Assembly (NCBI RefSeq): GCF_009856865.1
Contig: NZ_WVUD01000007.1
Coordinates: 1 to 64,000, forward strand
DNA length: 64,000 bases
DNA from: Solidesulfovibrio aerotolerans
GTDB lineage: Bacteria > Desulfobacterota > Desulfovibrionia > Desulfovibrionales > Desulfovibrionaceae
Direction: 5' to 3'
Shown: positions 6,231 to 39,436 of the stretch, one piece after another
Numbering within the stretch: position 1 is the first letter of the stretch
Layout of the letters: each line of letters begins with the position of its first letter
Notes under the pieces: model-generated
Database searches by the model: none
What the model saw: only the letters and a program-made list of their open reading frames with translations
Told to the model about the DNA's origin: nothing
Position numbers and translations under genes: made by a program

Positions 6231-6377
6231 GCCTCCGGCGGCCAAAGGGGTGACCCCTTTGGAATCCCTCATGGAAGGCAAGGGTTTATGCGGGCCAGGG
6301 TGTCGCGTGCCGCAACCCCTTTATAAACTTTTCCCGTCGGGGGGTCCGGGGGGATCATCCCCCCGGCCGCCGGAGGC
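6231..6377. repeat. Tail-to-tail repeat element with 13-bp inverted ends, copy 1
   Basis: The 147-bp element starts with GCCTCCGGCGGCC and ends with its exact reverse complement, GGCCGCCGGAGGC. The left unit holds a perfect palindrome at 6242-6262 (CCAAAGGGG, TGA, CCCCTTTGG). The right unit holds another at 6346-6366 (CCGGGGGGAT, C, ATCCCCCCGG). It sits between two convergent genes, the phosphatase and the 3D protein, and a pyrimidine-rich tract follows at 6378-6405. It can be read as one MITE-like element or as two gene-end hairpin units meeting tail to tail. Confidence 0.85.
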
Positions 6378-6407
6378 ATCTTCTGCCTTTTCTTCCCGCC
6401 TCCCCCA

Positions 6408-6833
6408 TCAACTCCCACTCCTAGCGCCGGCTTCCAGCAGTGTCACCACGATGGCGCGGCGTCTGCCGATCTTTTCAGCGGCGGCCGTATTGGGCACGGC
6501 CACGTCGATGGTGCGGCGGTGGCGCTGGTGCATGGTATCTTCAATGGTGAAGATGCCCAGGCCTTCGATGTGGACCTTGTCGCCAAATCCCCAGCCCTGG
6601 CGCAGCAGATCGCGGGACACGGCCACGATGCCCGGTCGGATGCGGGTGCCGATGGCGGTGCCGGATTTCGTGCCCCGGCCGCCGTTTTCCCGGGGATCGG
6701 GGGTGTAGGCCGTGACCGTGGCGGCAATGCGCGATTTGGATGCATTGTTTCTATTAGAAACGTTTTTGTGTTTCGAAGCTTCGGCCGTGGCGGCAAAAAG
6801 AAGAACCGTAATGATGATTGCAATGACTCTCAT
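6408..6833 (-). CDS. Exported 3D (Asp-Asp-Asp) domain protein
   Basis: This is a 141-residue protein with a signal peptide (MRVIAIIITVLLFAATAEA) followed by a short basic Asn/Lys linker and a double-psi beta-barrel 3D domain (about 40-135). Visible family features are TVTAYTP, GTRIRPGIVAVSRDLL, the IEDTM segment and TIDVAVP, which carry the conserved Asp residues. Relatives such as the C-terminal part of MltA and RpfB-type proteins act on peptidoglycan, so a cell-wall role is likely. An upstream in-frame ATG at 6887 exists, but GGAGGTG 8 bases before the ATG at 6833 and the signal peptide favour 6833. Confidence 0.85.
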   Translation of the reverse strand: MRVIAIIITVLLFAATAEASKHKNVSNRNNASKSRIAATVTAYTPDPRENGGRGTKSGTAIGTRIRPGIVAVSRDLLRQGWGFGDKVHIEGLGIFTIEDTMHQRHRRTIDVAVPNTAAAEKIGRRRAIVVTLLEAGARSGS

Positions 6834-7027
6834 GGAATGAACACCTCCATGCAGTGTTTCAAGCGTTGACCGATACGGAAAAACCACCGGTCAGGTTATC
6901 CCGGAAGCATGATCCTGAATGCGGCGGTCATGGATCGATGGGTGGTTGGCGATGGGAAGAATACTCTCGGAGATGGATCGAGCCGCGAGGGTGATACGGA
7001 GGATTCTTGCGCCGTTGTGAGGGGCGC

Positions 7028-7056
7028 TTCCTAGTAAAGGCACTGCGGGATGTCAA
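7028..7056 (-). promoter_or_regulatory. Sigma70-type promoter for the 3D gene
   Basis: A perfect -35 TTGACA (7056-7051) is followed after 17 bases by TAGGAA (7033-7028). The same -35 and spacer with TAGGGT precede hisS. Transcription from here would give a leader of about 190 bases before the ATG at 6833. The leader contains the complementary pair AAGAATCCTC and GAGTATTCTT. Apart from this, the 6834-7329 interval holds an AT-rich patch near 7080-7130 and no gene that I can support. Confidence 0.5.
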
Positions 7057-7329
7057 CCCGAAAAGGGCTGTTTCAGCCTATCTGAAATTTTATTTAATAG
7101 TCCGGTTAATTCATTACAATACAGCATGATAGCGCCTAAAATCAGCCATTTTCCCAGTTTCGCGAGCACTTTTTTTCATACTGCGACAGTCTGACTTGCC
7201 CGGCCAATAACCAGTAATTTCAGGGGGTGCGGCTGCTCGCGCCTGCCCCTTGCGCCAAGGGCGGCTCCCGGCTACGGTAGAAGACCGCGCCCGGCAGCCG
7301 TTTCGACCGTGCGCCGAAGGAATCGCCCC

Positions 7330-7779
7330 ATGACCATAACCCGCGCCACCCCTGTCCTTATGGTTGAAGACGTCAGCCGCACCGTGGCCTTTTACCGCGA
7401 TATCCTGGGCTTTGCCTTTGTCGTCGGCGTTGTCGAAGGCACCCGCACGAGCGTGACCCAGTGGCCCGCCCCCGGCCCGCTGGCTTTTGCCCTGGTGGAA
7501 AGCGGACTGGCCCGGCTCATGTTCGAGACCCGCTCCGCCATGGCCGCCGAACTCCCCAGGTTCGCCGAAACAAAAATCGGCGGCTCCCTGTCCCTCTACC
7601 TGGACTGCGACGACCTCGACGGACTCTACGCCCGCATAAGCGAACACGCGCCTTTCATCAAAGCGCCCCATACAACCTTCTACGGCACGCGCGAATGCAG
7701 CATCAAAGACGTAAACGGCTACGTCTTAACCTTCGCCGAACGCGCCCCAACACCACCAACCCCGGAGACGCCCGCATGA
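7330..7779 (+). CDS. Glyoxalase/bleomycin-resistance (VOC) family protein
   Basis: The 149-residue protein fits a single vicinal-oxygen-chelate fold: [24 protein letters not shown] at the N terminus and [16 protein letters not shown] at the C terminus. The substrate cannot be told from sequence, and the metal ligands are not fully conserved. An upstream in-frame ATG (7309) is possible, but AAGGA lies 6 bases before the ATG at 7330. The stop overlaps the hemL start by 4 bases (ATGA), so the two should be translationally coupled. Pairing with hemL is unusual and may be only positional. Confidence 0.85.
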
Positions 7780-9041
7780 CCCTGTCTGCCGAACTGTTCG
7801 CCAAGGCCCAAAAATTCATCCCCGGCGGCGTCAACAGCCCTGTGCGCGCCTGCCGCAGCGTGGGCTGCGACCCGATTTTCATTGACTCCGCCGCCGGCTC
7901 CAAAATGACCACCGTCGAAGGCCGGGAGATGCTCGACTATGTCATGTCCTGGGGGCCGATGCTGCTCGGGCATGGCGATCCCGACGTCACCGCCGCCATC
8001 CGGGCCGCTGTGGAGAAAGGCGTCAGCTACGGCGCGCCGTGTGCCGGCGAAGTAGCCCTGGCCGAGGCCGTGGCCGAGGCCGTGCCCGGCATCGACATGG
8101 TGCGCATGGTCAATTCCGGCACCGAAGCCACCATGAGCGCCGTGCGTCTGGCCCGGGGCTACACCGGCAAGTCCCTGATCGTGAAGTTCGAGGGCTGCTA
8201 CCACGGCCACTCCGACGGCTTCCTGGCCGCTGCCGGCTCGGGGCTGGCCACCTTCTGCATCCCCGGCACCCCGGGCGTGCCGGCCGACACCGTGCGCCAC
8301 ACCCTGCTCGCCCCCTACAACGACCTGGACGCCGTCAAGGCGCTGTTTGAGGCCCGCCCGGACATCGCCGCCGTCATCGTCGAACCCGTGGCCGGCAACA
8401 TGGGCCTCGTTTTGCCCAAGCCCGGTTTTCTCGAAGGCCTGCGCGAACTGACCAGCGCCCACGGCGCGCTCCTTATCTTCGACGAGGTCATCACCGGCTT
8501 TCGTCTGGCCTACGGCGGTGCCCAGAGCGTCTACGGCATCGACCCGGATCTGACCTGTCTGGGCAAAATCATCGGCGGCGGCCTGCCTGTGGGGGCCTAC
8601 GGCGGCAAACGCCACATCATGGAACGCATCGCCCCCTGCGGCGACGTCTATCAGGCCGGCACGCTGTCCGGGAATCCGCTGGCCATGGCCGCCGGTCTGG
8701 CTACGCTGAATAAGTTAAAGACCTCTGACTACGCCGGCCTCACCGAACGCACCACGGCCCTGGCCGAAGAGATGGCCGCCATTTTGCGGGAAAAGGGCGC
8801 GCCGGTGACGCTGACCCGGGTGGCCTCGCTGTTTACGCTCTTTTTCTGCGACGGACCGGTCACCAACTTCGACGAAGCCAAAAAGGGCGACGCCGCCCGC
8901 TACGCCAGCTTCTACCAGCAGATGCGCGCAGCCGGCATCATCCTGGCCCCCTCGGCCTACGAATGCGCCTTCACCTCGTTTGCCCACTCGGCCGACGACT
9001 ACGCCCGCACCCTCGACGCCGTGCGTGGGGTGCAATTTTAA
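7776..9041 (+). CDS. hemL: Glutamate-1-semialdehyde 2,1-aminomutase
   Basis: The 421-residue PLP enzyme converts glutamate-1-semialdehyde to 5-aminolevulinate, the entry step of tetrapyrrole synthesis by the C5 route (haem d1-type cofactors, sirohaem, cobalamin). Recognisable features are [13 protein letters not shown] at the N terminus, [28 protein letters not shown] and the PLP-lysine segment [34 protein letters not shown] follows. Length is typical. The frame is open further upstream, but homology and the ATGA overlap with the glyoxalase gene fix the start at 7776. Confidence 0.97.
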
Positions 9042-9047
9042 ATAATC

Positions 9048-9096
9048 GGGGCGCTGCCCCGGCCCCGCCGGGGGGGATCATCCCCCCCGGACCCCC
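9048..9096 (+). repeat. Gene-end palindromic repeat downstream of hemL
   Basis: It begins 6 bases after the hemL stop. Hairpin 1 is GGGGC-GCT-GCCCC (9048-9060). Hairpin 2 is a perfect GC-rich palindrome (9068-9090, centre GATCATC) followed by ACCCCC. It belongs to the same family as the copies near 6346, 10353, 26220, 30743 and 39406. Confidence 0.8.
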
Positions 9097-9268
9097 TGGA
9101 AGGGGGGATGCTGGCGCGCAATGCGGGGCCGAAACCGCCGGCCCGAGTTGCCGCGTTTCAGCCCGACGCCCTGGAAATCACCCCGGTGCGCTCCCTTTGT
9201 TCTCTCCGCTGCTTGAGACTTTTGACGTCAGCTTTCGCGAACCCAAAACGCCTGCCGGGGAGTGCCCC

Positions 9269-9583
9269 ATGTCCGAAGAACTGTTTGCCGACGGCATCCT
9301 GGGCGTCGGTTACGGCAAAGGTGCCGTGCGCATTGATTTTTTCACCCTGTCCGCCGATGCCGTGGATGCCAAGGGGCAGCCGGCCAAGGAACGCCGCCAA
9401 CGCGTCGTCATGACCACCGAAGGTTTTGTGGAGGCCTTTGCCCTGCTGGCCGGCGTCATGGACAAGCTGCAGGCCCAGGGCGTTGTGCGCCGCCAAGCTG
9501 CCCCCGCCCCGGCCAGCCCGGGGACGCCCGGCCGAACCGACGCGCCCAAAGCCGACGAGGCCTGTCCCAACCCCAATTTCTAG
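9269..9583 (+). CDS. Small protein of unknown function
   Basis: This is a 104-residue soluble protein. The first 70 residues look ordered (IDFFTLSADAVDAKGQPAKERRQRVVMTTEGFVEAFALLAGVMDKL), and the last 30 are a Pro/Ala-rich tail ending DEACPNPNF. The R-VVMT-EGF-L-L pattern faintly recalls DUF3467-like proteins, but I would not assign it. GGGGAG precedes the ATG. The frame is open far upstream through the repeat region, but that stretch is not plausible protein. Confidence 0.6.
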   Translation: MSEELFADGILGVGYGKGAVRIDFFTLSADAVDAKGQPAKERRQRVVMTTEGFVEAFALLAGVMDKLQAQGVVRRQAAPAPASPGTPGRTDAPKADEACPNPNF

Positions 9584-9705
9584 CCGCCACCCGGCCATTC
9601 GCGGCGGCAGGCTGCGACGGCAGGCCTTGACAGGCCGCAGGCCTGTGCGTTCAATGCCCCAAGCTTGCAGGCAGGCGATAACGGTGCGGTGAGGGGGAAA
9701 GCGGC

Positions 9706-10296
9706 ATGGAAGAGCGCGAGATCACCATTTCCGAACGGGTGCTGGGGCTTTTACGCCGCATGCCCGCCTTTTCCGGCCTGGGCGATGACCAGATTGCCGA
9801 TCTTTTCGCGGACAAAGGCCTGCGCCACCGGGAATACCGGGCCGGCGAGACCATCATCCGCGAGGGCGACCACGACACCTGGGTCTATTACCTCATCTCC
9901 GGTCAGGCCCGGGTGCTGGCCCAGGAAGCCGAGGTGGCGCGGCTGACCAACTACGGCGAGATTTTCGGTGAGATGGGACCGCTGCGCGGCAAACCGCGCA
10001 ACGCCTCGGTTGTGGCCCACTCCAAAGTCACCAGTTTCGCCATCGATCTTTCCATCCTCGACCGCATGCCGCCGGGCGAACGCAAACAAGCCTGCCGGCT
10101 TTTCGAAGAAGTCATCAGCGACGTGGTCCACGACCGCCTGGCCCGGGCCAACCTCGACGCCGCCGCCCTTCGCCGCGACCTGGACATGGCCGCCTCGGCC
10201 CTGGCCGGCGTCACGGCCCGGGTGCGCGAACTGGAACGCCGCGTCCTCGACCTCACCCGCGAGAATCAGGATTTACGCTGTAAAGTACCGGAATAA
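9706..10296 (+). CDS. Cyclic nucleotide-binding domain protein
   Basis: This is a 196-residue protein. Residues about 20-135 form a Crp-type cNMP-binding beta-roll: FSGLGDDQIADLF, GETIIREGDHDTWVYYLISGQARVL, NYGEIFGEMGPLRGKPRNASVVA and a C-helix. There is no DNA-binding helix-turn-helix. Residues about 140-190 are instead a predicted coiled coil (LDMAASALAGVTARVRELERR). It is therefore more likely a ligand sensor or scaffold than a transcription factor. The loop EMGPLRGKPRNAS resembles the phosphate-binding cassette but lacks the canonical RAA. AGGGGGAA precedes the ATG. Confidence 0.87.
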   Translation: MEEREITISERVLGLLRRMPAFSGLGDDQIADLFADKGLRHREYRAGETIIREGDHDTWVYYLISGQARVLAQEAEVARLTNYGEIFGEMGPLRGKPRNASVVAHSKVTSFAIDLSILDRMPPGERKQACRLFEEVISDVVHDRLARANLDAAALRRDLDMAASALAGVTARVRELERRVLDLTRENQDLRCKVPE

Positions 10297-10396
10297 GAGA
10301 AGATAAGACAAGAAAAGAGAAGAGAAGAAAGCAGGGCGCTGCCCTGCACCCGCCGGGGGGGATGATCCCCCCCGGACCCCCTCGACTTGGAGGGGG
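10297..10396 (+). repeat. Purine tract plus three-hairpin gene-end repeat
   Basis: Directly after the stop codon lies a 35-base, almost pure purine tract (10297-10331). Three hairpins follow: GCAGGGC-GCT-GCCCTGC (10331-10347), the 23-bp core palindrome (10353-10375) and CCCCCTC/GAGGGGG (10377-10396). It lies between the cNMP-binding gene and the MurB-like gene, both on the plus strand, and is the most complete copy in this orientation. Confidence 0.8.
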
Positions 10397-10466
10397 TAAG
10401 CTGGGCCGGGTGTGGCGGCGGGCGGGAGTTGCTTGCAGGAGTAGGCACGGGAGCCAGCAGACTGAG

Positions 10467-11336
10467 ATGACGATTTTTTTTGCACCGGCATGGTTGACCG
10501 AACACAACTCTTACCGGGTCGTGGCCCGGGCTGAAGCCTGCGCTTTTCCCCAAACAGCAGACGAATTGATTGTTGCTTTGCAGGAGTCTGTTGGAGAGCG
10601 CACCGTGCTGCTCGGCCACGGCTGCAACGTCATACTTTCGCGCAATCATTACGATGCTGCGACACGCTTTGTCAGCACCAAACACGTTGACGCGGCTGTT
10701 GTCGTTGCGGATGATCTTGTCAAGGCCGGGGCTGGCGCGCGACTGCGCGACGTCTGCCGGGCCGCCGCCAGGGCCGGGCTGACCGGCCTGGAGCGGCTGT
10801 GGGACATCCCCGGCAGTGTCGGCGGCGCGGCGTATATGAACGCCGGGGCCTACGGCGCGTCGTTTTACGATGTGGTGGAATCAGTAAAGGTCTATTTCCC
10901 AGGAACGGGCGCGATAGCAGACCTCGCGCGGGAGCAATGCCGCCCGGCCTACCGCCTGACCGCCTTCCAGGGCACGGACGCCGTGATTTTAGGCGTCACC
11001 CTGCGCCTGCCCCCGGCCGCTGCTCCGGCGGCCGGGCTGCTCGAAATGGGCCGCATCGGCAAACTGCGCCGCTCCAAACTGCCGTATCATCTGCCGAGCG
11101 CCGGCAGCGTCTTTCGCCGCCCGCAAGGTGCCCCGCCCGTGGGCCAGATCATGGAAGAAGCCGGCTTGAAAGGCTTTACCCTCGGTGGCGCACAGATTTC
11201 CCAACGCCACGCCGGCATCATCGTCAACGCCAACGGCGCTACCGGAAGTGATATTCTGGGTGTTGTGGAAGTGATGCGGCAGGCGGCGCGGGAGCGCTAT
11301 GGGGTGGAGTTGGTGTTGGAGCAGGTGGTTCTGTAA
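10467..11336 (+). CDS. murB: MurB-like UDP-N-acetylenolpyruvoylglucosamine reductase
   Basis: This 289-residue FAD enzyme should reduce UDP-GlcNAc-enolpyruvate to UDP-MurNAc in the cytosol. FAD-domain motifs are GHGCNVILS (usually GGGSN) and LERLWDIPGSVGGAAYMNAGAYG. The catalytic regions AYRLTAFQ, SAGSVFRRP (active Ser) and GVELVLEQV (late Glu) are present, as is KGFTLGGAQISQRHAGIIVNANGAT. It is not in a cell-division cluster here, so a second murB may exist elsewhere in the genome. The ATG at 10467 is chosen because the upstream in-frame extension runs into the repeat. The upstream ribosome-binding site is poor. Confidence 0.88.
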   Translation: MTIFFAPAWLTEHNSYRVVARAEACAFPQTADELIVALQESVGERTVLLGHGCNVILSRNHYDAATRFVSTKHVDAAVVVADDLVKAGAGARLRDVCRAAARAGLTGLERLWDIPGSVGGAAYMNAGAYGASFYDVVESVKVYFPGTGAIADLAREQCRPAYRLTAFQGTDAVILGVTLRLPPAAAPAAGLLEMGRIGKLRRSKLPYHLPSAGSVFRRPQGAPPVGQIMEEAGLKGFTLGGAQISQRHAGIIVNANGATGSDILGVVEVMRQAARERYGVELVLEQVVL

Positions 11337-11403
11337 AAACACCGGGACAGGCATTTAATTTGCATGATAACGAAAACCACCCTACGGCAGGAGGTTTTTG
11401 CCC

Positions 11404-11961
11404 ATGTCAGACACGTCCTATCGCCTTGACATTGCCTCCGTGAAACCCTTGGCCGCCACGGTCAAAGCCGTGCCGCTTGCCGAAGCGCCCGAAGACCTTT
11501 TTCAAATGGTCATGGCAGCGAAGCAGGACATGCTGCAACTGCAATATTCCCAGGCACCAGACACTGCAAACAATCCAACGTACGCGCCGTATGCTACTGT
11601 TGTCGTCAATGGCAAAGTGGTCGCGAAAATCGATAATCACGGATTCGTGGAGACAACCAACGCAATGCACGCGTCGTGTGTCGACGCCATCAAGGCGGCG
11701 GACGCAGAGTCGAGTGTTTTGAGCGGCCCTGAGCTCGCCCAAGCCCGCGCCAGGAGAATTGCCGAGGCCGTGAACGGCACGATCAACAAGGCTCCAACAG
11801 CGATGTCGCAGCGCGCCTTTGACGCAACGCCCCAACCCAAAATGACGTTCAATTACGAGGCCATGCAGCGTGACCCTGAGTATGCGGCCATCGAACAACT
11901 CAAGAAAGCCCACGCCGCTTTTCTCGCCCAGCATATGGAGCCACAAAACAGCGCTGCGTAA
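11404..11961 (+). CDS. Protein of unknown function
   Basis: The 185-residue product has no signal peptide or membrane segment. It is Ala-rich and mostly helical in character, with a short beta-like section (YAPYATVVVNGKVVAKIDNHGFVETTN). I do not recognise a family. The start is well defined: AGGAGG lies 8 bases before the ATG at 11404, better than a TTG two codons upstream. Base composition is less GC-rich than the flanking genes, which may indicate later acquisition. It ends about 90 bases before the trmFO end on the opposite strand. Confidence 0.7.
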   Translation: MSDTSYRLDIASVKPLAATVKAVPLAEAPEDLFQMVMAAKQDMLQLQYSQAPDTANNPTYAPYATVVVNGKVVAKIDNHGFVETTNAMHASCVDAIKAADAESSVLSGPELAQARARRIAEAVNGTINKAPTAMSQRAFDATPQPKMTFNYEAMQRDPEYAAIEQLKKAHAAFLAQHMEPQNSAA

Positions 11962-12052
11962 AAGGCTCGCCTGAACACGTTGCAACGCCGCCATGCGCGC
12001 GACGCGGCCGGCTAGCGCGCGCATCTCCACCCGGGCAGGACGGCGTAATTTG

Positions 12053-13366: not shown

Positions 13367-13387
13367 ATATTTCACTCCGAGAATGTC

Positions 13388-13424
13388 GGGAGGAACCCCT
13401 TTTTGAAAAAAGGGGTTCCTCCCC
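13388..13424. repeat. Palindrome upstream of trmFO
   Basis: GGGAGGAACCCCTTTTT pairs perfectly with AAAAAGGGGTTCCTCCC, giving a 17-bp stem with almost no loop. It is followed by GCCCCTTCTTCCC and an AAAAATTTTT stretch. It lies 22 bases upstream of the trmFO start, an odd place for a terminator. The rest of 13367-13831 has only a weak 59- to 83-residue minus-strand ORF that I do not trust. Confidence 0.7.
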
Positions 13425-13831
13425 ACGCCCCTTCTTCCCAAAAATTTTTAAGGGGGGCTGTTATAAACTGTTCTGTTGTCGTGGTGTCGCATTGCGTCCG
13501 GCTTCGGCGGCCATGGGCACCAGGATATCGGGGCCTGGTGCGGCCGCACCAAATCCGGAGCGCTCGCTGCCAGCGGCCGGGTCAAAGGGAAGTCCGCAGG
13601 CGTCGGCCACGGCCTTCAGGCAGACAAGGGCTGTCTGCATGGGCGGCCAAACCGTTTCGGCGCAAGGTTGGCGGGCAGCGGAAACCGGCCGCGCCGGCAT
13701 CCGGCGTTTCAATTAGGTGAAATCCGCCCGCCGGGCAAGACCAGTGCGTCGGCGGCCTTGTCCTTTGCCTGCCGGGGGCGTAGATGATGGGGAATCAGGA
13801 ACCCATAACCCAAATAGCGGAGCACAGACGT

Positions 13832-25911: not shown

Positions 25912-25920
25912 AGAGAGAGG

Positions 25921-25961
<41 letters not shown>

Positions 25962-26253
25962 GCCTCCGGCGGCCAAAGGGGTGGCCCCTTTGGAATCCCA
26001 CCCTAAAGGCAAGGGGTTAGGGGGGAAGGGCGTTGCCGTGACGGTGGGTGGGAGCGGGACGTCCGACGGGCGGGCGCATGCCGCAGGGCATGGTTGACGA
26101 GCACCGCCGCAACAACGGTGTCCCCGTCAATCCCAAACGCTGGCGGCCCAGGCCGGCAGCCACCCAGCTTGCCACCAATGCCCAATAACCCCTCAAAATA
26201 CTTCTCCAATCAAGGGGGTCCGGGGGGGATTATCCCCCCCGGCCGCCGGAGGC
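25962..26253. repeat. Tail-to-tail repeat element with 13-bp inverted ends, copy 2
   Basis: The 292-bp element begins GCCTCCGGCGGCC and ends with the exact reverse complement, like copy 1 at 6231. Left palindrome 25973-25993 (CCAAAGGGG, TGG, CCCCTTTGG); right palindrome 26220-26242 (centre GATTATC). The interior is longer than in copy 1 and mostly unrelated. It lies between convergent genes (kinase and Old Yellow Enzyme) and is flanked by a purine tract on the left and a pyrimidine tract (26254-26285) on the right. It accounts for nearly all of the 25912-26290 gap. Confidence 0.85.
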
Positions 26254-26290: not shown

Positions 26291-27397
26291 TCAGCGGCGT
26301 TGTACTGCGTAGCCGTACTGGATCGGCCAAGTCTGGGCAGCGCCCAGTTCCTGCTGGGCGTGGAGCGCCCAATAGGGCGTGCGCAGCATCTCCCGGGCCA
26401 GCAGCACCAGATCGGCCTGGCCTGAGGCCACGATTGCCTCGGCCTGGGCCGGTTCCGTAATAAGGCCCACGGCGCTGGTGAGCACCCCGGCCCGGGCGCG
26501 GATGGCGGCGGCAAACGGCACCTGAAAGCCCGGTGCCACCGGAATCCGGGCATGGGGAACCAAGGCCCCGGAACTGACGTCGATCAGATCCACGCCCCGG
26601 GCGGCCAGCTCCTTGGACAGGACCACCGACTGTTCCAGATCCCAACCGCCTTCCACCCAATCCGTGGCTGAAATGCGCGTGAAAAGCGGCATATCGGCCG
26701 GGATCACGGCCCGGATGGCTGCAGCGACCTCCAAGGGCAGCCGCATGCGGTTTTCCAGGCTGCCGCCGTAGGCGTCGGTGCGGGTGTTGCTTAAGGGCGA
26801 GAGGAACTGGTGGAGCAGATAGCCGTGGGCGGCGTGCAGCTCGATGAGGCCAAAGCCTGCGGCCACGGCGCGTTGGGCCGCCGCGACAAAGGCCGCTGTA
26901 ACAGCCGCGATGCCAGCCAGATCCAGGGCGTGGGGCAGGGGGTCGCTTTCGGAAAAGGGGAGGGCGCTTGGGGCGAGGACGTCCCAGCCGCCGTCTTTGG
27001 CGTCCACGATCCTGGCCCCGCCTTCCCAGGGCGGACGGCAGCTGGCCTTGCGGCCGGCGTGGGCCAGTTGGATGCCGGGAACCGCGCCCATGCGGCGGAT
27101 AAAGGCGGCAACCGGGGCCAGGGCGCGCCCGTGGGCGTCGCTCCACAAACCCAAATCGCCCGGGGCAATGCGGCCCTCGGGCACTACTGCCGTGGCCTCG
27201 GCCATGACCAGACCGGCCCCGCCCACGGCCCGGCTGCCCAGATGCACCAGATGCCAGTCGTCGGCCAGACCATCGGTGCAGCAATACTGGCACATGGGGG
27301 ACACGCCGATGCGGTTGCGCAGGGTGACGCTGCGAATGGTCAACGGTGAAAGGAGTTTGGCTTCGCCAGGGGATGTCGTTGTGGTTGTGTTGGTCAT
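26291..27397 (-). CDS. NADH:flavin oxidoreductase, Old Yellow Enzyme family
   Basis: The 368-residue FMN enzyme is of the YqjM/NamA class, reducing activated C=C bonds of enones and similar electrophiles. It shows LTIRSVTLRNRIGVSPMCQYC (FMN-site Cys), QLAHAGRKAS, ELHAAHGYLLHQFLSPLSNTRTDAYGGSLENR with substrate-binding His pair, and ADLVLLAREMLRTPYW at the end. Length is typical. AGGAG lies 8 bases before the ATG. The start overlaps the stop of the upstream alpha/beta hydrolase by 4 bases (ATGA), so both are coupled. The physiological substrate is unknown. Confidence 0.94.
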   Translation of the reverse strand: MTNTTTTTSPGEAKLLSPLTIRSVTLRNRIGVSPMCQYCCTDGLADDWHLVHLGSRAVGGAGLVMAEATAVVPEGRIAPGDLGLWSDAHGRALAPVAAFIRRMGAVPGIQLAHAGRKASCRPPWEGGARIVDAKDGGWDVLAPSALPFSESDPLPHALDLAGIAAVTAAFVAAAQRAVAAGFGLIELHAAHGYLLHQFLSPLSNTRTDAYGGSLENRMRLPLEVAAAIRAVIPADMPLFTRISATDWVEGGWDLEQSVVLSKELAARGVDLIDVSSGALVPHARIPVAPGFQVPFAAAIRARAGVLTSAVGLITEPAQAEAIVASGQADLVLLAREMLRTPYWALHAQQELGAAQTWPIQYGYAVQRR

Positions 27398-30734: not shown

Positions 30735-30774
30735 CGGGGGGTCCGGGGGGATCATCCCCCCGGCCGCCGGAGGC
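30735..30774 (-). repeat. Gene-end palindromic repeat downstream of fmt
   Basis: This is a single unit of the repeat family. On the minus strand it reads GCCTCCGGCGGCC followed by the core palindrome (30743-30763). A pyrimidine-rich tract at 30775-30800 (purine on the minus strand) separates it from the fmt stop. There is no second unit facing it, as the next gene is on the same strand. Confidence 0.8.
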
Positions 30775-30812
30775 CTCTTCATCTTCTCTTCGTCTTCGTC
30801 TTTCTTAGCCGC

Positions 30813-32314: not shown

Positions 32315-32318
32315 GGCG

Positions 32319-34124
32319 TCAGGATTGTTCCTTGTCCTTCTCGCGCGTCCGCAACTTGATGCCAAGCTCTCGCAACTGGTTGTTGGATACTTCGCCCGGG
32401 GCTTCGGTGAGCAGGCACAAGGCCTTCTGGGTCTTAGGGAAAGCGATGACGTCGCGGATGGATTTGGCCCCGGCCAAGATCATGATAAGGCGGTCCAGGC
32501 CAAAGGCAATGCCGCCGTGGGGCGGTGCGCCGTATTCCAGGGCGCGCAGCAAAAAGCCAAACTTGTCCTCGGCCTCTTCGGCCCCGATGCCGAGCACGGC
32601 GAACATGGCCCGCTGGGACTCGCGGTCGTGGATGCGGATGGAACCGCCGCCGATCTCGCTGCCGTTGAGCACAAGATCATAGGCCCGGGCCAGGGCTTCG
32701 CCCGGGGCGGATTCGATGGTCCCCATCTGGCCGGGCTGGGGCGAGGTGAAGGGATGGTGGCGGGCCACCCAGCGCTTGGCCTCGGCGTCGTATTCCAGGA
32801 GCGGGAAATCCGTGATCCAGACCGGGGCGAAGCTGTCTTCGGGGATCAGCTTGAAGCGCTCGCCGAGTTGCAGGCGCAGATAGCCCAGGGCGTTATTGAC
32901 CATGTCGGACGCGCCGGCCTGAAAAAAGACAATGTCGCCGATTTCAAGGCCAAAGGCGTCGGTCAGGCCCTGGCGCTCTTCGTCGCTTAAGAACTTGGCA
33001 AAGGGCGACTGCCATTCGTCTTCCTTGATCTTGATCCAGGCCAAGCCCTTGGCCCCATAGATTTTGACGAACTCGGTCAGGTCGTCAATCTCCTTGCGCG
33101 ACAGGGCGCCGCCGCCCGGAACGCGAATGCCCTTGACCAGCTCGGCCTTGGCAAAAACCTGGAACCCCGAGCCGCGAACGATGGAGGTGACGTCCACGAG
33201 CTTAAGATCAAAGCGGATGTCGGGCTTGTCCAGGCCGTAGTCGCGGATGGCCTCGGCAAAGGGCATGCGCGGGAAAACGGCCGGCAGGGTAACGCCGGCG
33301 GCCTCGCGAAACATGGTCTTGACCATGGTCTCGGCCATGCCCATGACCTGCTCTTCGTCCACAAAGCTCATTTCGATATCGACCTGGGTAAATTCCGGCT
33401 GGCGGTCGGCGCGCAGGTCTTCGTCGCGAAAGCACTTGACCACCTGATAGTAGCGGTCAAACCCGGACATCATGAGCAACTGCTTAAACAGCTGGGGCGA
33501 CTGGGGCAGGGCGTAGAACGAGCCGTTGTTGACCCGACTGGGCACCAGAAAATCGCGCGCGCCCTCGGGGGTGGATTTGGTCAGCACCGGGGTTTCGACT
33601 TCGAGAAAGCCCAGCTCATCGAGGTAGCGGCGGATGCTCTGGACGGCGCGGTGGCGCAACATGAAGTTGGCGGCCAGTTTGGGCCGGCGCAGATCCAGAT
33701 AGCGGTATTTCAGGCGCAGCAGTTCCGAGGCGTCGATGCGGTCTTCGATGGGAAAGGGCGGGGTGATGGCGGTATTTAAGAGCTTGAATTCCGCGACCTC
33801 AACCTCGACAGCGCCGGTGGGCATATTGGGATTGGCCATGCCTTCGGGCCGGGCGCGCACCCGGCCTTTGACGGCCAGCACGAATTCGGTACGCAGCACA
33901 TGGGCGCGTTCCAGGGCCGATTCGCTGCCTTCGGGGCAAAAGACCACCTGGGTCAGGCCGCCCCGGTCGCGCAGATCGATAAAAATAAGGCCGCCATGGT
34001 CGCGGCGGAACTGGGCCCAGCCCATAAGGCAGACGTCGCTGCCGACATCGGTTGCCCGAAGCGCGCCGCAATCGTGGCTGCGCCGCCAATCGCCCAGAAT
34101 ATCGAGGGCCAGGGTCTCGCTCAT
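32319..34124 (-). CDS. aspS: Aspartyl-tRNA synthetase
   Basis: The 601-residue class II synthetase has an OB-fold anticodon-binding domain (about 20-110, WAQFRRDHGGLIFIDLRDRGG), motif 2 YYQVVKCFRDEDLRADRQPEFTQ, the bacterial GAD insertion (about 290-410) and motif 3 GIAFGLDRLIMIL. HHPFTSP matches bacterial AspRS. Whether it is discriminating or makes Asp-tRNA(Asn) too cannot be decided here. The frame is open far upstream, but the protein start MSETLALDILG is at 34124. Confidence 0.97.
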   Translation of the reverse strand: MSETLALDILGDWRRSHDCGALRATDVGSDVCLMGWAQFRRDHGGLIFIDLRDRGGLTQVVFCPEGSESALERAHVLRTEFVLAVKGRVRARPEGMANPNMPTGAVEVEVAEFKLLNTAITPPFPIEDRIDASELLRLKYRYLDLRRPKLAANFMLRHRAVQSIRRYLDELGFLEVETPVLTKSTPEGARDFLVPSRVNNGSFYALPQSPQLFKQLLMMSGFDRYYQVVKCFRDEDLRADRQPEFTQVDIEMSFVDEEQVMGMAETMVKTMFREAAGVTLPAVFPRMPFAEAIRDYGLDKPDIRFDLKLVDVTSIVRGSGFQVFAKAELVKGIRVPGGGALSRKEIDDLTEFVKIYGAKGLAWIKIKEDEWQSPFAKFLSDEERQGLTDAFGLEIGDIVFFQAGASDMVNNALGYLRLQLGERFKLIPEDSFAPVWITDFPLLEYDAEAKRWVARHHPFTSPQPGQMGTIESAPGEALARAYDLVLNGSEIGGGSIRIHDRESQRAMFAVLGIGAEEAEDKFGFLLRALEYGAPPHGGIAFGLDRLIMILAGAKSIRDVIAFPKTQKALCLLTEAPGEVSNNQLRELGIKLRTREKDKEQS

Positions 34125-34170
34125 GTGTGTGATCCTTTTTTCAAGCCGGTGGGGCAGCGCCCCGGATTTC

Positions 34171-35439
34171 TTATTCTTGCGCTCTGCCTTCTTCCAGGCG
34201 GGCGCGCAGGTAGGCGGCGAGCAGGGCCTGGCCGATTGTTTCCTGGCCGCCGGCCCGCATATTTTTGACCACCACGGTATTGGCGGCCAGTTCGTCCGTG
34301 CCGAGCACCAGGCAGAAGGCGGCTTTGGACTTATCCGCCGCGCGCATCTGGCTTTTGGCGCTTTTGGCGGCGTAGGGCGCTTCGCCGCCAAACCCGGCCA
34401 GGCGCAGCTCCTGGGCCAGCAGCAGGCCGCGTTCCAGGCCGGTGGCGTCGAGAACGACCAGGGCGAAATCGGGGGCGGGGTCGGCCGTTTTATCAATGAG
34501 CAAAGCCAGCCGCTCCATGCCGCAGGCAAAGCCGACGCCGGGCACGTCCGGGCCGCCGATGGAGTGGACCAAGCCATCGTAGCGGCCACCGCCGGCCACG
34601 GAGGATTGGGAGCCGATGTCGCCGGAGACGATCTCAAAGGTGGTGCGCACGTAGTAATCCAGGCCGCGCACCAGCCGGGGACTCAGGCTGTAAGCCAACC
34701 CGGCCCCGTCGAGGATGCGGCGCACCACGGCGAAATGCTCGGCGCAGTCCGGGCAGAGATGATCGGTTATTTTGGGCGCGTCGGCCGTATATTCCTTGCA
34801 GGTCGGCACCTTGCAGTCCAGCACGCGCAGCGGGTTGGTGAGCTTGCGGCGCATGCAGTCGTCGCAAAGCCGTTCCTTGTGCATGCCCTTTAAAAACTCG
34901 CGCAGGGTATCGAGAAAGACCGGCCGGCAGTCGCGGCAACCGAGTGAATTGAGTTCGATGGTCAGGTTGGTCAGCCCCAGCGCGCGCAGATACTGGTCGA
35001 GCATGAGCAGCACTTCGGCGTCGAGCAGGGCGTCGGGGGAGCCGACGGCTTCAACGTCGATCTGGTGGAACTGGCGCATGCGGCCTTTTTGCGGCCGTTC
35101 GTAGCGAAACATCGGCCCGTAGGCGTAGTATTTGGCCAGACCTTCGCTGGCGCGGCCTTCTTCGACCAGGGCGCGCATGACGCTGGCCGTGGCTTCGGGG
35201 CGCAGGGTGAGCGAGCGGCCTTTGCGGTCCGGGAAGGTGTACATTTCCTTCTGGACCACATCGGTTTCCTCGCCGATGGAGCGGCAAAAGAGTTCGGTGC
35301 GTTCGAGGATGGGAACGCGCAATTCTTTGTAACCGTAGCGGGAGAACACGTCCCGGGCAGTGGCCTCGATAAACGAGAACACACTGGAATCGGGCGGAAA
35401 GAGATCGGCAAAGCCTTTGATTTTCTGTATTTTTTCCAT
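34171..35439 (-). CDS. hisS: Histidyl-tRNA synthetase
   Basis: This is a 422-residue class II synthetase. It shows KIKGFADLFPPDS, motif 2 MFRYERPQKGRMRQFHQ, histidine-binding SPRLVRGLDYYVRTTFE and motif 3 GVGFACGMERLALL. An insertion at about 165-235 is rich in Cys (RDCRPVF, LCDDCMRRK, DCKVPTC, LCPDCAEHF), which suggests a metal-binding module. It is first in the translation operon. The end is close to aspS (46 bases). Confidence 0.97.
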   Translation of the reverse strand: MEKIQKIKGFADLFPPDSSVFSFIEATARDVFSRYGYKELRVPILERTELFCRSIGEETDVVQKEMYTFPDRKGRSLTLRPEATASVMRALVEEGRASEGLAKYYAYGPMFRYERPQKGRMRQFHQIDVEAVGSPDALLDAEVLLMLDQYLRALGLTNLTIELNSLGCRDCRPVFLDTLREFLKGMHKERLCDDCMRRKLTNPLRVLDCKVPTCKEYTADAPKITDHLCPDCAEHFAVVRRILDGAGLAYSLSPRLVRGLDYYVRTTFEIVSGDIGSQSSVAGGGRYDGLVHSIGGPDVPGVGFACGMERLALLIDKTADPAPDFALVVLDATGLERGLLLAQELRLAGFGGEAPYAAKSAKSQMRAADKSKAAFCLVLGTDELAANTVVVKNMRAGGQETIGQALLAAYLRARLEEGRAQE

Positions 35440-35488
35440 TGAATCCGCCGGGCTGGGCGATGGTGTCGCGTCGTTAAAAAAGAGGGCT

Positions 35489-35517
35489 ACCCTAGATCAG
35501 GGCGCTCGCCTTGTCAA
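35489..35517 (-). promoter_or_regulatory. Sigma70-type promoter for the hisS operon
   Basis: TTGACA (35517-35512) and TAGGGT (35494-35489) are separated by 17 bases, 50 bases upstream of the hisS ATG. The -35 is perfect and the -10 fits a TAnnnT pattern. A TAGG-type -10 is also seen upstream of the 3D gene. Confidence 0.6.
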
Positions 35518-35528
35518 AAGGCCGGGCG

Positions 35529-36266
35529 CTACCCGGCGCACGCGCCTGCCTTGGCCCCAAAGGCCGGCAGCGGCGTCACCACCGGCTCGCGCGTCAGATT
35601 GACCGCGCAGGCGCAAATAGCCCCCACCGGCACCGGCAACATGAGCGAATTGAGCTGCCGCCATGGCGAGGCCTCGCGCCAGGTGGATTTCGGTCCGACA
35701 AGCACCGACCCCAGCCGCAGGGGACGCGGCCCCAGGCTTTGGCGCACCAGACCGGTCAGCCCCCAGGGGGTAAACCAGCAGGCGTTGCGCAACAGCTTGC
35801 CCGTGGACCCAGGCCAGAGCTTTGAGGACAGCCCGTAGAACGAAAAACGGTTTAAAAACCCCACCAGCACGGCCTTTCGGGCCACCCGGGCCGCCTCTTG
35901 CAGCACCAGGGCCGGATCAGGGCAAAATTCCAGCACGGTCAGCAACACGGCGTAATCATAGGCCTTGTCATCAAAAGGCAGATGCCCGGCGTCGCCCAGG
36001 TGCAGATCGGCCCGATTGCCCAGGCGTCCCCGGGCCTGCTCCAGCATATCCGGCGACGCATCCAGGCCGGTGACGTCAAAGCCGCTGTGGTGCAGCACTT
36101 CCAGGAACACCCCGGTGCCGCAGCCAATCTCCAGCAGCCGCTGGCCGCGCCGGGGCCAGGCTGCGGTCATGCGTTCCAAAAGGCGCAGTTCGCGCTTGAG
36201 CGCAAACGACCCGGCTTCGGTCTGAAACCAGGCATCGTAGCGTCGGGCGGTTTCTTTGTCCCACAT
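35529..36266 (-). CDS. Class I SAM-dependent methyltransferase
   Basis: The 245-residue protein begins MWDKETARRYDAWFQTEAG and has motif I LLEIGCGTGVFLEVL, motif post-I GLDASPDMLEQARGRLG and YDYAVLLTVLEFCPDPALVLQEAARV. It belongs to the UbiE/type-11 methyltransferase group. The substrate is unknown. The start at 36266 matches the usual MWDK opening; the ORF opens 17 codons earlier but without support. It lies upstream of hisS with its own terminator region. Confidence 0.87.
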   Translation of the reverse strand: MWDKETARRYDAWFQTEAGSFALKRELRLLERMTAAWPRRGQRLLEIGCGTGVFLEVLHHSGFDVTGLDASPDMLEQARGRLGNRADLHLGDAGHLPFDDKAYDYAVLLTVLEFCPDPALVLQEAARVARKAVLVGFLNRFSFYGLSSKLWPGSTGKLLRNACWFTPWGLTGLVRQSLGPRPLRLGSVLVGPKSTWREASPWRQLNSLMLPVPVGAICACAVNLTREPVVTPLPAFGAKAGACAG

Positions 36267-36383
36267 GGCGTGTGCGAAGCAGCCGGCAAGGCTCCCCGGG
36301 CCGTTTGCCCAAGGCAAGCAACAGTCCTCGCCCGACCACCTTCCCTCCCTTTGGCGATTCCGGCAAAGGCGGTGGCGTGTTGC

Positions 36384-36411
36384 CCTGCCCGGACCGCCCT
36401 GGCCGGGCAGG
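36384..36411. terminator. Hairpin downstream of ilvD
   Basis: CCTGCCCGG (36384-36392) pairs with CCGGGCAGG (36403-36411) across a 10-base loop, about 70 bases beyond the ilvD stop. There is no T tract on either strand. The rest of 36267-36481 shows nothing clear. Confidence 0.45.
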
Positions 36412-36481
36412 TGTCCGTGGGCGGCCGCCCACAGGCAGGCTGGCAGGGCTGCACCCGGCGGTCCAGGCGCAGCCCTGTCTT

Positions 36482-38158
36482 CTACCGTCCCCGGGGGTCC
36501 TTGTACACAGCACCCTGGGCAGCCGATTTGACCAGGGATGCATAGCGGCGCAACAGCGGCGATTCAATGACCTTTTCGGGATGGACCAGTGTTGCCCGAC
36601 GGGCCTCCAATTCGGCCGCGTCCACGCAGACATCGAGCCGGCGGCCCGGGATATCGATTTCGATGCGATCACCTTCGCGGACCAAGCCAATGGGGCCGTC
36701 GTCGGCCGCCTCGGGCGAGACGTGGCCGATGGCCGCGCCGCGCGTGCCGCCGCTAAAGCGCCCGTCGGTAATAAGGGCCACGGATTCGCCCAGGCCCATG
36801 CCCATGATATTGGAGGTGGGGGAGAGCATTTCGCGCATACCCGGCCCGCCCTGCGGTCCTTCGTAGCGGATGACCACCACGTCGCCGGGGTTGATCTGGC
36901 CGCCAAGGATGGCCGTATTGGCCGCTTCCTCGCTGTCAAACACCCGGGCCGGGCCGGCGTGGCGCATCATGGCCGGCAGGACGGCCGACTGCTTGACCAC
37001 GGCCCCGTCGGGAGCCAGACTGCCGCGCAAAATCGCGATGCCGCCCTCGTTGGCATAGGGCTCCTTGGCCCGGATGACGTCGAAATTGCGCACCCGCGCC
37101 TTCAAATCCGTCAGATTTTCCCCCAGCGTCTTGCCCGTAGCGGTCATGACGTCGAGGTGAATCAGCCCCCGCGTGGCCAACTCGGACATGACCGCCGGGA
37201 TGCCACCGGCCCGCTCCAGATCGTCCAGATAGTGCTTGCCGGCCGGGGACAGCTTGCACAAATTCGGGGTTTTGCGCGAAATGGCGTCAAAGATATCAAG
37301 TGTGAGCGGCAGACCGGCTTCGGCAAAAACGGCCGGCAGATGGAGCACCGTGTTGGTGGAACAGCCCAGGGCCATGTCCATGGTCACGGCGTTTTCGATG
37401 CTCTTGGCCGTGACGATATCCCGGGGCCGGATGTTTTTGGCCAGCAGATCCATGACGCGCATGCCGGCCGTCTTGGCGAGGCGCACCCGCTTGGCCGTCA
37501 CGGCCGGGATGGTGCCGTTGCCGGGAAGCCCCAGGCCCACGGACTCGGACAGGCAGTTCATGGAATTGGCCGTAAACATGCCCGAACATGAGCCGCAGCC
37601 CGGACAGGCGTTTTGCTCCAGTTCCTCCAGCCCCTCGGCGTCCATGGTGCCGCGCTTGAATTTGCCCACGGCCTCGAACACGTCGATGAGATCGACCTGC
37701 CCGGCGTCGGTGACGCCCGCCAGCATGGGGCCGCCGCTCACGATTATCGACGGGATATTGAGCCGCAGCATGGCCATAAGCATCCCAGGCACCACCTTGT
37801 CGCAGTTGGGGATGCACACCAACGCGTCAAAGGGATGGGCCGAGGCCATGATCTCGATGGAATCGGCGATGATCTCGCGGCTGACCAGGGAAAAATGCAT
37901 GCCGGCATGGTTCATGGCCAACCCGTCGCACACGCCGATAACCGGGAAGGTCATGGGCGTGCCGCCAGCCATACGGATGCCGGCCTTGACCGCTTCGGCA
38001 ATGGTGTTCAAATGGATGTGGCCGGGAACGACCTCGTTGGCGGAATTGACCACGCCAATCAGCGGGCGCTCCATTTCCTCTTTCGTCAGACCAAGAGCGT
38101 AGAGCAACGAACGGTGCGGGGCCTTTTCCAGCCCGGATTTGAAAAGCGAACTGCGCAT
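36482..38158 (-). CDS. ilvD: Dihydroxy-acid dehydratase
   Basis: The 558-residue iron-sulfur enzyme dehydrates 2,3-dihydroxy acids in valine, leucine and isoleucine synthesis. Typical segments are [58 protein letters not shown] (cluster Cys) and [22 protein letters not shown]. Length is normal. AAGGA is 7 bases before the ATG at 38158. The ORF opens 22 codons earlier but this is not family-like. It is divergent from the glycosyltransferase gene. Confidence 0.97.
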
Positions 38159-38207
38159 GACGGTTTCCTTGGGGGAGGGTTGTCCGGCCGTGCGCCGGAA
38201 CGTGGAG

Positions 38208-38216
38208 TTTTCCACA
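38208..38216 (+). promoter_or_regulatory. Single DnaA-box-like 9-mer
   Basis: TTTTCCACA fits the loose consensus TTWTNCACA and lies in the divergent gap between ilvD and the glycosyltransferase. It is isolated, so it may be chance or a titration/regulatory site, and I do not call an origin here. Confidence 0.25.
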
Positions 38217-38292
38217 ATCACCACCCGACTGGCAAGGCCGGCCCGCCCTCGCCCCAGCCCACATCTACCAAAGCCTTCCCGCCGGAGCCTGA

Positions 38293-39303
38293 ATGCGCAT
38301 CGTTAATCTCCACCACCCGGCCTTCGTCCCCACTTTCCGCAAACTCGGCCACGACGTCCTGGCCATCGGCACCACGCCCGACTGTGACGTCCATCTCGAC
38401 CAGCCGCTCTCCTGTAAACGGTTTCTGGAAGTGCTCGCGGCCAAGGACATGCGCCCGGATCTGATCCTTTGGTGCGACGCCTGCCAACCTCCCTGGATTT
38501 TCGGCTTTGAAAATCTGCCGGCCGTGGTCATCGGCTATTCCGTGGACCAGTACTTAAACCCCTGGCATGTCCCCTACAGCGCCGGCTTTGACGCCGTTTT
38601 CGTGGCCCAAAAAGACTATCTGCCACTGTTTGCCGCTGCGCCAACCAACCGGCCCGCCGCCTGGATGCCGCTTTTTTGCGATCCAACCGTTGACCGCGAC
38701 CCGCTTATCCCCCGCGACATTCCCGTGAGCTTCGTCGGCACGCTCAAAAGCTTTGCCAACCCCGGCCGCAAAGCCTTCCTCGACGCCTTTCGCGCCCAGG
38801 CACCACTTTTCGCCAAACAAGGCGCCTACCCGCCCATCTTCGCCCGCAGCCAGATCGTTTTGAATCAATCCGCAGCCGGCGAACTCAATTTCCGCCTGTT
38901 CCAGGCCATGGCCTGCGGTGCTGCCGTTTTAACCGAAGCAACCCATAACGGCCTGGCCGACCTCTTTACGCCAGGCCTTGAGTGCCTCACCTACACCCGT
39001 GGCGATGCCGGTCATGCCGCCGCCGTGGCCCGGGCAACGCTTGCCGACCCGGCCACCCTGGCCGCCATCGCCGCTGCCGGCAAACGCAAGACCCTGGCCC
39101 GGCACACCGTCCTTCACCGCGCCCGCCAAATCCTCGACACAGCCCTGCACTTGGCCCAAACCGGCGCGCCAGCCCAAAGAATGGCCGCCATCCAAACGGT
39201 GCACCCGGAAATGCGCAAAGCGTTCGCCATGCTCGCCACAGACGAAGGCCTGCCGCTGCCTGTGAGCGAACGGCAGTTTTTTCTGGATATGTCCCGGCCC
39301 TAG
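38293..39303 (+). CDS. CgeB-like glycosyltransferase
   Basis: The 336-residue protein resembles GT-B fold CgeB/spore-maturation type transferases. Features are [37 protein letters not shown] and VSFVGTLKS. The C-terminal nucleotide-sugar region is [27 protein letters not shown] with Glu. Proteins of this kind modify surface polysaccharides or flagellin. Donor and acceptor are unknown. GGAG precedes the ATG at 38293 by 5 bases. It is alone on the plus strand and followed by repeats. Confidence 0.82.
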
Positions 39304-39339
39304 CGAAGCGGGGAGGGATGGCCGGCGGCGAGGGCGGGG

Positions 39340-39436
39340 AGAGAAGGGTGGAAGGTGGAGGAGGAAGGCAGGAGGCGGAGAATCGGGGCTTTGCCCCGAA
39401 CCCCACCGGGGGGATGATCCCCCCGGACCCCTCGAC
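39340..39436 (+). repeat. Purine tract plus gene-end palindromic repeat
   Basis: A purine-rich tract (39340-39382) is followed by CGGGGC-TTT-GCCCCG (39384-39398... see 39384-39398) and the core palindrome (39406-39426) with ACCCCTCGA. It lies 3' of the glycosyltransferase in the same orientation as the copies after hemL and the cNMP-binding gene. The gap 39304-39624 also contains the hairpins listed next and no gene. Confidence 0.8.

Follow-up and report, generated by a model that had tools for sequence, protein, structure and literature searches.

Hairpin elements with a mirror-image third arm are dispersed at gene 3′ ends in Solidesulfovibrio aerotolerans

The genome of Solidesulfovibrio aerotolerans contains over two hundred dispersed copies of a hairpin element that lie mostly just 3′ of stop codons and nearly always face them. 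The family was recognized in the first 64,000 nucleotides (nt) of contig NZ_WVUD01000007.1 (hereafter the window; the genome, labelled G000, comprises 4.61 Mb in 161 contigs), where an earlier note made from the letters alone had described six copies of a palindromic core. The hairpin is followed by a C-rich tail that mirrors one of its arms and covaries with the stem, and the same layout recurs in a second phylum. On the basis of these sequence patterns we propose, with about even confidence, that the family represents transcript-end or boundary hairpins that lack a U-tract and would employ a third strand.

Element copies follow stop codons and face them

In the whole genome, the core GGGGGGATNATCCCCCC was found 241 times at no more than two mismatches and 212 times exactly, with 0 matches to the reversed-pattern control. 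Placement was analyzed in a sample of 40 G000 stretches plus the window (852,006 bases, 18.5% of the genome), in which our own hexamer-based caller defined 722 genes. Nine other sampled contigs had been picked as core-bearing, so that densities do not equal the genome average, while the comparison of gap classes is unaffected. A preliminary pass over 456 kb had yielded 76 elements, with three false in-gene matches discarded. The full sample contained 102 elements; two in a called gene were dropped, and 94 of the 100 kept lie between two called genes, one of the 100 (stem CCGGCAAACACGGCC...) being doubtful. The two dropped copies, the only in-gene cases, form a tandem with a distance of 93 bp at positions 2421-2547 of locus L020 (contig C41), within a gene call that is perhaps a miscall.

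Convergent gaps carried elements more often (30 of 106) than divergent gaps did (2 of 107; p 1.4e-8), even though the latter comprise 29.8 kb of DNA and the former 22.7 kb. Tandem gaps of at least 100 bp carried an element in 32/200 cases and shorter ones in 2/299. The distance from stop codon to header, in the 77 cases where both are on the same strand, was 3-81 bp with a median of 37. Orientation was equally regular: 45 of the 47 elements in convergent gaps point towards the nearest stop, and where a tandem gap carries an element, the first copy is oriented to the upstream stop in 30 of 34 cases. The earlier note's proposal that the repeats are enriched at 3′ ends and keep one orientation relative to the gene is therefore borne out in this sample.

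Header, hairpin and tail form a three-part grammar

In gene direction, an element is composed of a GA-rich leader, the header GCCTCCGGCGGCC, a GC-rich hairpin with a loop of mostly 3 nt, and a C-rich, G-poor tail, with GG-A between the stem and the tail. In a second element type, one or more leading hairpins (GGGGC-NNN-GCCCC) replace the header. The mean purine fraction of the 25 nt preceding the header was 0.797 (n = 88 elements), compared with 0.485 in 285 control 3′ regions. Outside genes, 85 of the 88 exact 11-nt headers led into a perfectly paired hairpin of 7 bp or more, against 1/88 in a letter-shuffled control; two more exact 11-nt headers were located within genes. Stems are highly diverse, ranging from G-runs around ATNAT to AAAGGG(G/C), GGGAGGGGG, GGGGGCC and AGGAGAGG, and in G010, another genome of the genus, and in other genera the arms reach about 20 nt and include A- and T-runs. 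The core described earlier is one among many interchangeable stems, and the conserved parts are the header and the three-part grammar.

The tail is a mirror image of the hairpin arm

The tail corresponds to the mirror image of the hairpin 3′ arm, that is, to the parallel complement of the 5′ arm, as exemplified by the arm and tail pairs GAGAGGG and CTCTCCC, GGGGAGG and CCCCTCC, GGAGGGG and CC(T/A)CCCC, and GGGGGAAACTTTT and CCCCTTTCAAAAA. We examined this relation in 271 hairpins from 14 genomes and 8 genera, selected by header and hairpin and blind to the tail. In 33 distinct arm/tail pairs whose purine run contains an internal A, the tail carried A or T opposite 31 of 41 arm A residues and 21 of 194 arm G residues (anchored mirror test, odds ratio 25.5, p 1.5e-16, with positions treated as independent); the corresponding direct-copy table gave an odds ratio of 1.17 (p 0.68). 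The observed mean match of 0.807 exceeded that of permuted tails, which averaged 0.609 and reached a maximum of 0.695 over 5000 trials. Unanchored local alignment of 52 distinct arms gave z 6.6 in mirror order and z 3.4 in direct order, with mirror order winning for 19 arms, direct order for 5 and ties for 28. For the 14 arms of at least 10 nt, the strong/weak pattern scored 0.542 in mirror order (null 0.362) and 0.168 in direct order (null 0.086), and mirror order fitted 11 arms better and direct order 3. Arms beginning with an A-run were followed by AAT or AAA and then C in 21 of the 23 listed rows, the remainder being AAAT and TAT, and for arms with a G-run and then an A-run, A or T stood directly after the C-run of the tail in 9 of 10. 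We also considered the tail as a direct repeat of the 3′ arm, which would make it a Watson-Crick competitor for the 5′ arm, and rejected this because both its order and the position of A/T follow the mirror; in two G003 tails (CCTCCTCG), a shifted direct copy fits at least equally well.

Whole-genome pattern scans, which permitted either order, recovered 83 places in 9 of 149 genomes of the bacterium's own family, all of this genus, and 73 places in the Roseomonas group, located in 15 of 200 genomes of the Falsiroseomonas tokyonensis family and in further Roseomonas-group genomes. One extra match came from an uncultured Clostridiales genome. In both sets, A/T at tail position 3 or 4 tracked the outer base of the arm (own family, 22, 0 and 1, 58 as table rows, p 6e-19; Roseomonas group, 13, 1 and 2, 53, p 4e-11). 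Six places fell outside both columns: two with outer base G, two with CCCCACC, and one each with CCTGCCC and CCCTTCC. A direct-copy tail occurred at none of the 156 places in the two phyla, in scans whose fixed C at tail positions 1, 2, 6 and 7 renders some alternative tails invisible.

Read along the sense strand, the arms have the order purine-pyrimidine-pyrimidine; along the template strand the order is purine-purine-pyrimidine, and there they satisfy the purine-motif third-strand code, with template G on GC and A or T on AT. Opposite arm A, the scans gave T and A in ratios of 59:23 and 31:39, and the use of both bases fits this code on template DNA (Holder 2015). According to the same source (PMC4666352), the purine motif is said not to form in RNA and the pyrimidine motif can, and either strand may form the predicted triplex. 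The arrangement follows the rules of intrastrand triplex motifs, and a triplex may form in the cell. The pyrimidine-containing inner part of long arms departs from the standard triplex code.

Four loci in other genera of the family (L146, L131, L133 and L196) have mirror tails that span approximately 18-28 nt along arms with C- and T-runs. In these tails, arm C is matched by C and arm T by A, with no fit to the standard triplex code.

The layout recurs in the Roseomonas group

Falsiroseomonas belongs to the Roseomonadaceae (Alphaproteobacteria, Pseudomonadota) and Solidesulfovibrio to the Thermodesulfobacteriota (NCBI taxonomy). At 51 Roseomonas-group loci, 39 hairpins were positioned 3-45 nt (median 11) past a same-strand stop codon; nine were on the opposite strand, two inside a called gene and one without an upstream gene. 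These counts rely on a gene caller trained on the GC content of third codon positions, which was swapped in after the result of the first caller had been seen; the latter (16 same-strand and 13 in genes, n = 51) was unreliable and placed clear gene ends on the wrong strand. The header GCCTCCGGCGGCC did not precede the hairpin in the 11 loci inspected. The three-arm grammar and the 3′-end placement recur without the header in this unrelated group, and common descent, transfer or convergence could each account for the occurrence.

Positions persist between species while stems are swapped

The header followed by NGGG was detected in 14/14 genomes of the genus, in 10 of the 21 other genera of the family that were sampled and, as single matches, in 3 of 24 genomes from outside the family. 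The particular core was more restricted, occurring in 13/14 genus genomes, 4/21 other genera and 0/24 genomes of other families, and its exact count per genus genome ranged from 0 to 212 (153 in G010). When named genomes were scanned for one of the stem types, 56 loci were recovered, mostly from Solidesulfovibrio or Desulfovibrio. An element accompanied hemL in all 13 genomes with a hemL match (two cut by contig ends), with differing stems. At fmt, it was present in 5 of 14 genus genomes (one cut by a contig end) and absent from the other nine. Comparison of G005 with G008 (103 reciprocal best hits, median identity 97.9%) provided 47 comparable ends, of which eight had an element in either species; all eight were common to both, at least three with clearly different stems, and neither gain nor loss was found among the 47 ends. 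At one of these sites the tail had altered along with the stem (CCAGGGC..ACCC vs CCAGGAGAGGC..ACCTCTCC). Two sites initially scored as single-species were common on inspection, one having a mutated header and the other a gene-call error. Positions of the elements persist between species while their stems are swapped.

Facing pairs of elements occurred in 26 gaps of the G000 sample, some of which separate tandem genes and have the second copy pointing at a start codon. The interiors of 19 of the 26 pairs matched at least one other (at least 80 bp, E<=1e-8), the longest match being 83.6% over 408 bp in opposite orientation; this relatedness suggests that the units were copied or converted within the genome. 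In G010, several facing pairs (L104-L113) enclose a GC-rich inverted repeat of 20-23 bp that contains AAAGGGCGGTC or GAAGGGCGGTC.

Matches to the Y1 transposase family (Y1_Tnp) were found in 8 of 14 genus genomes, with two in G000 (C118:8747-8968 and C85:993-1349, one with an in-frame stop) and none in G010. Mobilization by a repetitive extragenic palindromic (REP)-associated tyrosine transposase (RAYT) is hence unsupported in G010, which contains 153 exact cores; for G000 it is conceivable.

Elements of the window

A window scan located GGGGGGATNATCCCCCC at 6348, 9071, 10356, 26223, 30745 and 39408, confirming the six cores of the earlier note; with up to three mismatches allowed, 12 matches were obtained against a chance expectation of 0.80, with palindromes counted once per strand. 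As had been claimed, every core follows a gene on its own strand, with the header or leading hairpin beginning 6-81 bp past the stop. The exact header GCCTCCGGCGGCC occurred five times in the window, always within elements; with two mismatches it was not enriched there over chance (15 vs 13.2). Host genes encode a SpoIIE phosphatase, a class-III aminotransferase, a cNMP-binding protein, a PAS/HisKA kinase, a formyltransferase, a glycosyltransferase and a member of the Old Yellow Enzyme family; hemL and fmt were assigned at equivalog level. The gene names given earlier stand except for the "3D protein" (gene 6408-6833, minus strand), which had no Pfam match and, in NCBIfam, sub-threshold matches only, to cell-wall-binding Ent proteins. 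No Rfam match in the window exceeded the gathering score.

The related unit noted earlier after the phosphatase and the kinase is also present, in both cases as one member of a facing pair. Past the SpoIIE/Cache phosphatase gene (stop at 6194), the header GCCTCCGGCGGCC (6231-6243, plus strand) leads into the hairpin CCAAAGGGG-TGA-CCCCTTTGG (6242-6262, plus; RNA fold) and the tail AATCCC (6263-6268, plus), a mirror-type third strand of the class A-run then G-run. The facing element comprises a header (6365-6377, minus) 30 bp past the stop of gene 6408-6833, the core hairpin CCGGGGGGA-TGA-TCCCCCCGG (6346-6366, minus; core scan and RNA fold) and the tail ACCCCCC (6339-6345, minus), and the interior of the pair (6263-6345) resembles that of a pair on contig C24 (74.7% over 83 bp). 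After the PAS/histidine kinase gene, a GA-rich leader (25912-25961), header (25962-25974), hairpin CCAAAGGGG-TGG-CCCCTTTGG (25973-25993) and tail AATCCC (25994-25999), all on the plus strand, face a header (26241-26253), core hairpin (26220-26242) and tail ACCCCC (26214-26219) on the minus strand, where the header lies 37 bp past the stop of the Old Yellow Enzyme family gene (26291-27343, minus). The interior of this pair (25994-26219) resembles pair interiors on C24, C11 and C72 (72-76% over 99-119 bp).

The fmt gap contains a minus-strand header (30762-30774) 38 bp past the fmt stop, a core hairpin (30743-30763) and the tail ACCCCCC (30736-30742). Three plus-strand elements have leading hairpins. 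Downstream of hemL, the header-less type begins 6 bp past the stop with GGGGC-GCT-GCCCC (9048-9060) and continues with the core hairpin CCGGGGGGGA-TCA-TCCCCCCCGG (9068-9090; core scan and RNA fold) and the tail ACCCCC (9091-9096), which could also pair with the adjoining downstream GGGGG. The cNMP-binding gene is followed by a GA-rich leader (10297-10332), the leading hairpin GGGC-GCT-GCCC (10334-10344), the core hairpin CCGGGGGGGA-TGA-TCCCCCCCGG (10353-10375) and the tail ACCCCC (10376-10381), and the glycosyltransferase gene by the leading hairpin GGGGC-TTT-GCCCC (39385-39397; RNA fold), the core hairpin (39406-39426; core scan and RNA fold) and the tail ACCCC (39427-39431). Past this last element, the gap that separates the glycosyltransferase gene from its convergent neighbor also contains a perfect inverted repeat of 33 bp, with 8 nt as spacer (39500-39573), which does not resemble the hairpin-repeat family.

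Relation to known repeats and terminators

Under the definition of intrastrand triplex motifs (ITxF, classes I-IV), the elements carry a complementary pair and a third arm in mirror order on one strand. The BoxC/PIT/TM_ECO repeats (PIT, potential intrastrand triplex) of E. coli and other Proteobacteria, as presented in Holder 2015 (PMC4666352), are likewise multicopy, short, G/C-rich and intergenic, with three arms of which two are mirror-related and two complementary, and with a second loop of 3 nt. They differ in arm order, which is Y-R-R (Y, pyrimidine; R, purine) for BoxC/PIT and R-Y-Y in gene direction here (R-R-Y on the template), and the BoxC consensus CCCTCNCCC-N3-6-GGGNGAGGG-N3-GGGNGAGGG does not describe our elements. 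In that account, moreover, BoxC/PIT is a single highly conserved sequence without strand bias and oftener upstream of open reading frames, whereas the elements studied here have a fixed orientation at 3′ ends, many stems and a third arm that varies with them. Desulfovibrio, Roseomonas, Acetobacter and Gluconacetobacter are absent from the main text of Holder 2015, although its database may list some sites, and the main text of RepRanger 2025 is without Desulfovibrio. Searches of an open-access library yielded no description of this hairpin family.

REP sequences of the GTAG/CGTC type, as characterized by Di Nocera 2013 (PMC3733652), are also short hairpins near 3′ ends in convergent or same-direction gaps, with frequent facing dimers and many subfamilies defined by their stems. 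Our elements share this location, occupying convergent and unidirectional gaps with frequent dimers, and the U-tract-less or clustered-hairpin terminators of Gupta and Pal 2021 (PMC8355165) resemble them in having one or more hairpins no further than approximately 80 nt from the stop and a dispensable U-tract. In place of the REP tag, however, the elements here have a 13-nt header and a mirror tail: GTAG/CGTC tetranucleotides or their complements were at neither hairpin foot in 88/88 header-type elements of the G000 sample, and G010 lacks a Y1 match. The terminators, for their part, are defined by hairpin and position, whereas our elements are also marked by a header that is conserved and a third arm that changes in step with the stem. 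The earlier comparison with REP elements tied to 3′ ends held for placement and orientation but did not accommodate the outward-facing pairs with shared interiors, some of which face start codons; such pairs suggest that part of the family spreads as a REP- or MITE-type repeat (MITE, miniature inverted-repeat transposable element).

A MITE is a unit with inverted ends and a related interior, whose insertion produces a target-site duplication. Facing pairs, and only these, are similar in combining inverted ends with related interiors. The elements differ in that they are often single and exchange stems at fixed sites, and fmt sites with and without an element, compared by eye, are too diverged to reveal a target-site duplication.

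Discussion

The placement, orientation and tail covariation described above point, at about even strength, to a family of U-tract-less hairpins with a third strand that mark transcript ends or boundaries. Also in favor are the lack of canonical U-tract terminators within 120 nt at the 76 ends with an element and the retention of positions, as after hemL, despite different stems. Since each element is oriented by its gene, even where two of them face each other at a single locus, we relate the elements to transcription rather than replication; a replication-strand explanation was rejected by reasoning, as the members of a facing pair have opposite orientation at one locus. We envisage that copies would spread and be homogenized within the genome by copying or gene conversion and be retained where they face a stop codon, as markers of the transcript end. 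When RNA polymerase moves off the gene, the hairpin would form without a U-tract, and either the RNA tail or the G-rich mirror arm of the template strand may fold back as a third strand. This strand would lock the hairpin, so that the polymerase is halted or 3′-5′ decay is blocked. Termination or boundary formation is a plausible function, to which we grant somewhat less than an even chance, and protection of mRNA 3′ ends is a distinctly weaker candidate. That both phyla harbor one class of transcript-end elements acting through an intrastrand triplex, in the template strand or the nascent RNA, is a speculative extension that we regard as rather unlikely.

Several observations weigh against the transcript-end reading. 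An own-strand element is present at 74 of 412 eligible gene 3′ ends only. Of the 34 element-bearing tandem gaps, 10 contain a second, facing copy and 4 a reverse copy alone, with reverse headers 24-400 bp from a start codon, where no same-strand gene ends, and the genes that flank the fmt element are close neighbors without it in nine other genomes. RNA folds of four window elements are strong but only 1.4-2.5 sd better than same-letter shuffles. Direct-copy tails likewise score above their own null (z 3.4 for the 52 arms; p 0.011 for long arms), because many arms are short and nearly symmetric. Read on the sense strand as a pyrimidine motif, the C-rich tail requires protonated C and is misfitted by A opposite A. 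The E. coli PIT motif has neither promoter nor terminator activity (cited in Holder 2015, PMC4666352). Finally, canonical terminators within 250 nt occur at 2/76 ends with an element and 34/398 without (p 0.096), a modest exclusion that could follow simply from the elements occupying the place.

The elements could instead be selfish repeats, akin to REPs, bacterial interspersed mosaic elements or MITEs, which would multiply as composite units with outward-facing ends and whose copies were purged from coding and promoter DNA and survive after stop codons without any 3′-end function. The 26 facing pairs with their 19 matching interiors, the spread of exact cores from 0 to 212 across the genus, the empty fmt site in 9/14 genomes and the two Y1-transposase matches in G000 agree with such an origin, as does the preference of REPs for convergent and unidirectional gaps and their dimer formation (Di Nocera 2013, PMC3733652). 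Purging nevertheless leaves unexplained why headers are oriented to the stop (30 vs 4 tandem gaps; 45/47 in convergent gaps), why the mirror rule is held across stems and why stems are exchanged at fixed sites; G010 has its exact cores without a Y1 match, and G005 and G008 show no gain or loss. We judge a purely selfish origin to be fairly improbable. A REP-like barrier to 3′ exonucleases, in which the hairpin alone protects the upstream mRNA and the tail is incidental, would account for stable stems directly past stop codons and for the fmt element between closely spaced genes, but it offers no explanation for the mirror tail, and we consider it unlikely.

Two further structures appear much less probable. 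The template strand carries G-tracts, for example in GGGTGGG-TCC-GGGAGGGG, and 20 of the 202 first hairpins supply four separate G3 tracts (loops 1-7) when its third arm and purine arm are taken together, an undercount in that G6-7 runs were kept whole. The remaining 182 fail this four-tract rule for a G-quadruplex, and the AAAGGGG/AATCCC and GAGAGGG/CTCTCCC types obey the mirror rule without four G-tracts, which makes a quadruplex element very improbable. An ordinary intrinsic terminator is scarcely credible: the hairpin is GC-rich and shortly past the stop, and some tails have T-runs about 20 nt further on, but the tail that adjoins the stem is C-rich, and searching the 120 nt after the stop gave a GC hairpin with a direct U-tract at 0/76 ends with an element and 27/398 ends without (p 0.013).

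Intrastrand triplex motifs have been known in bacteria since about 2000 without an assigned function, and the PIT elements of E. coli show no strand bias, as told in Holder 2015 (PMC4666352). Here, a motif of this type is bound to gene 3′ ends in one orientation, with a third arm that covaries with the stem in two phyla. On comparative grounds, such covariation argues that the third strand is itself of consequence, and the action of triplexes in bacterial transcription becomes directly testable. If the reading of a cross-phylum class acting through a triplex is true, these long-known motifs would gain a job in ending or delimiting transcription, and the third strand would be under selection, as its covariation with the stem suggests.

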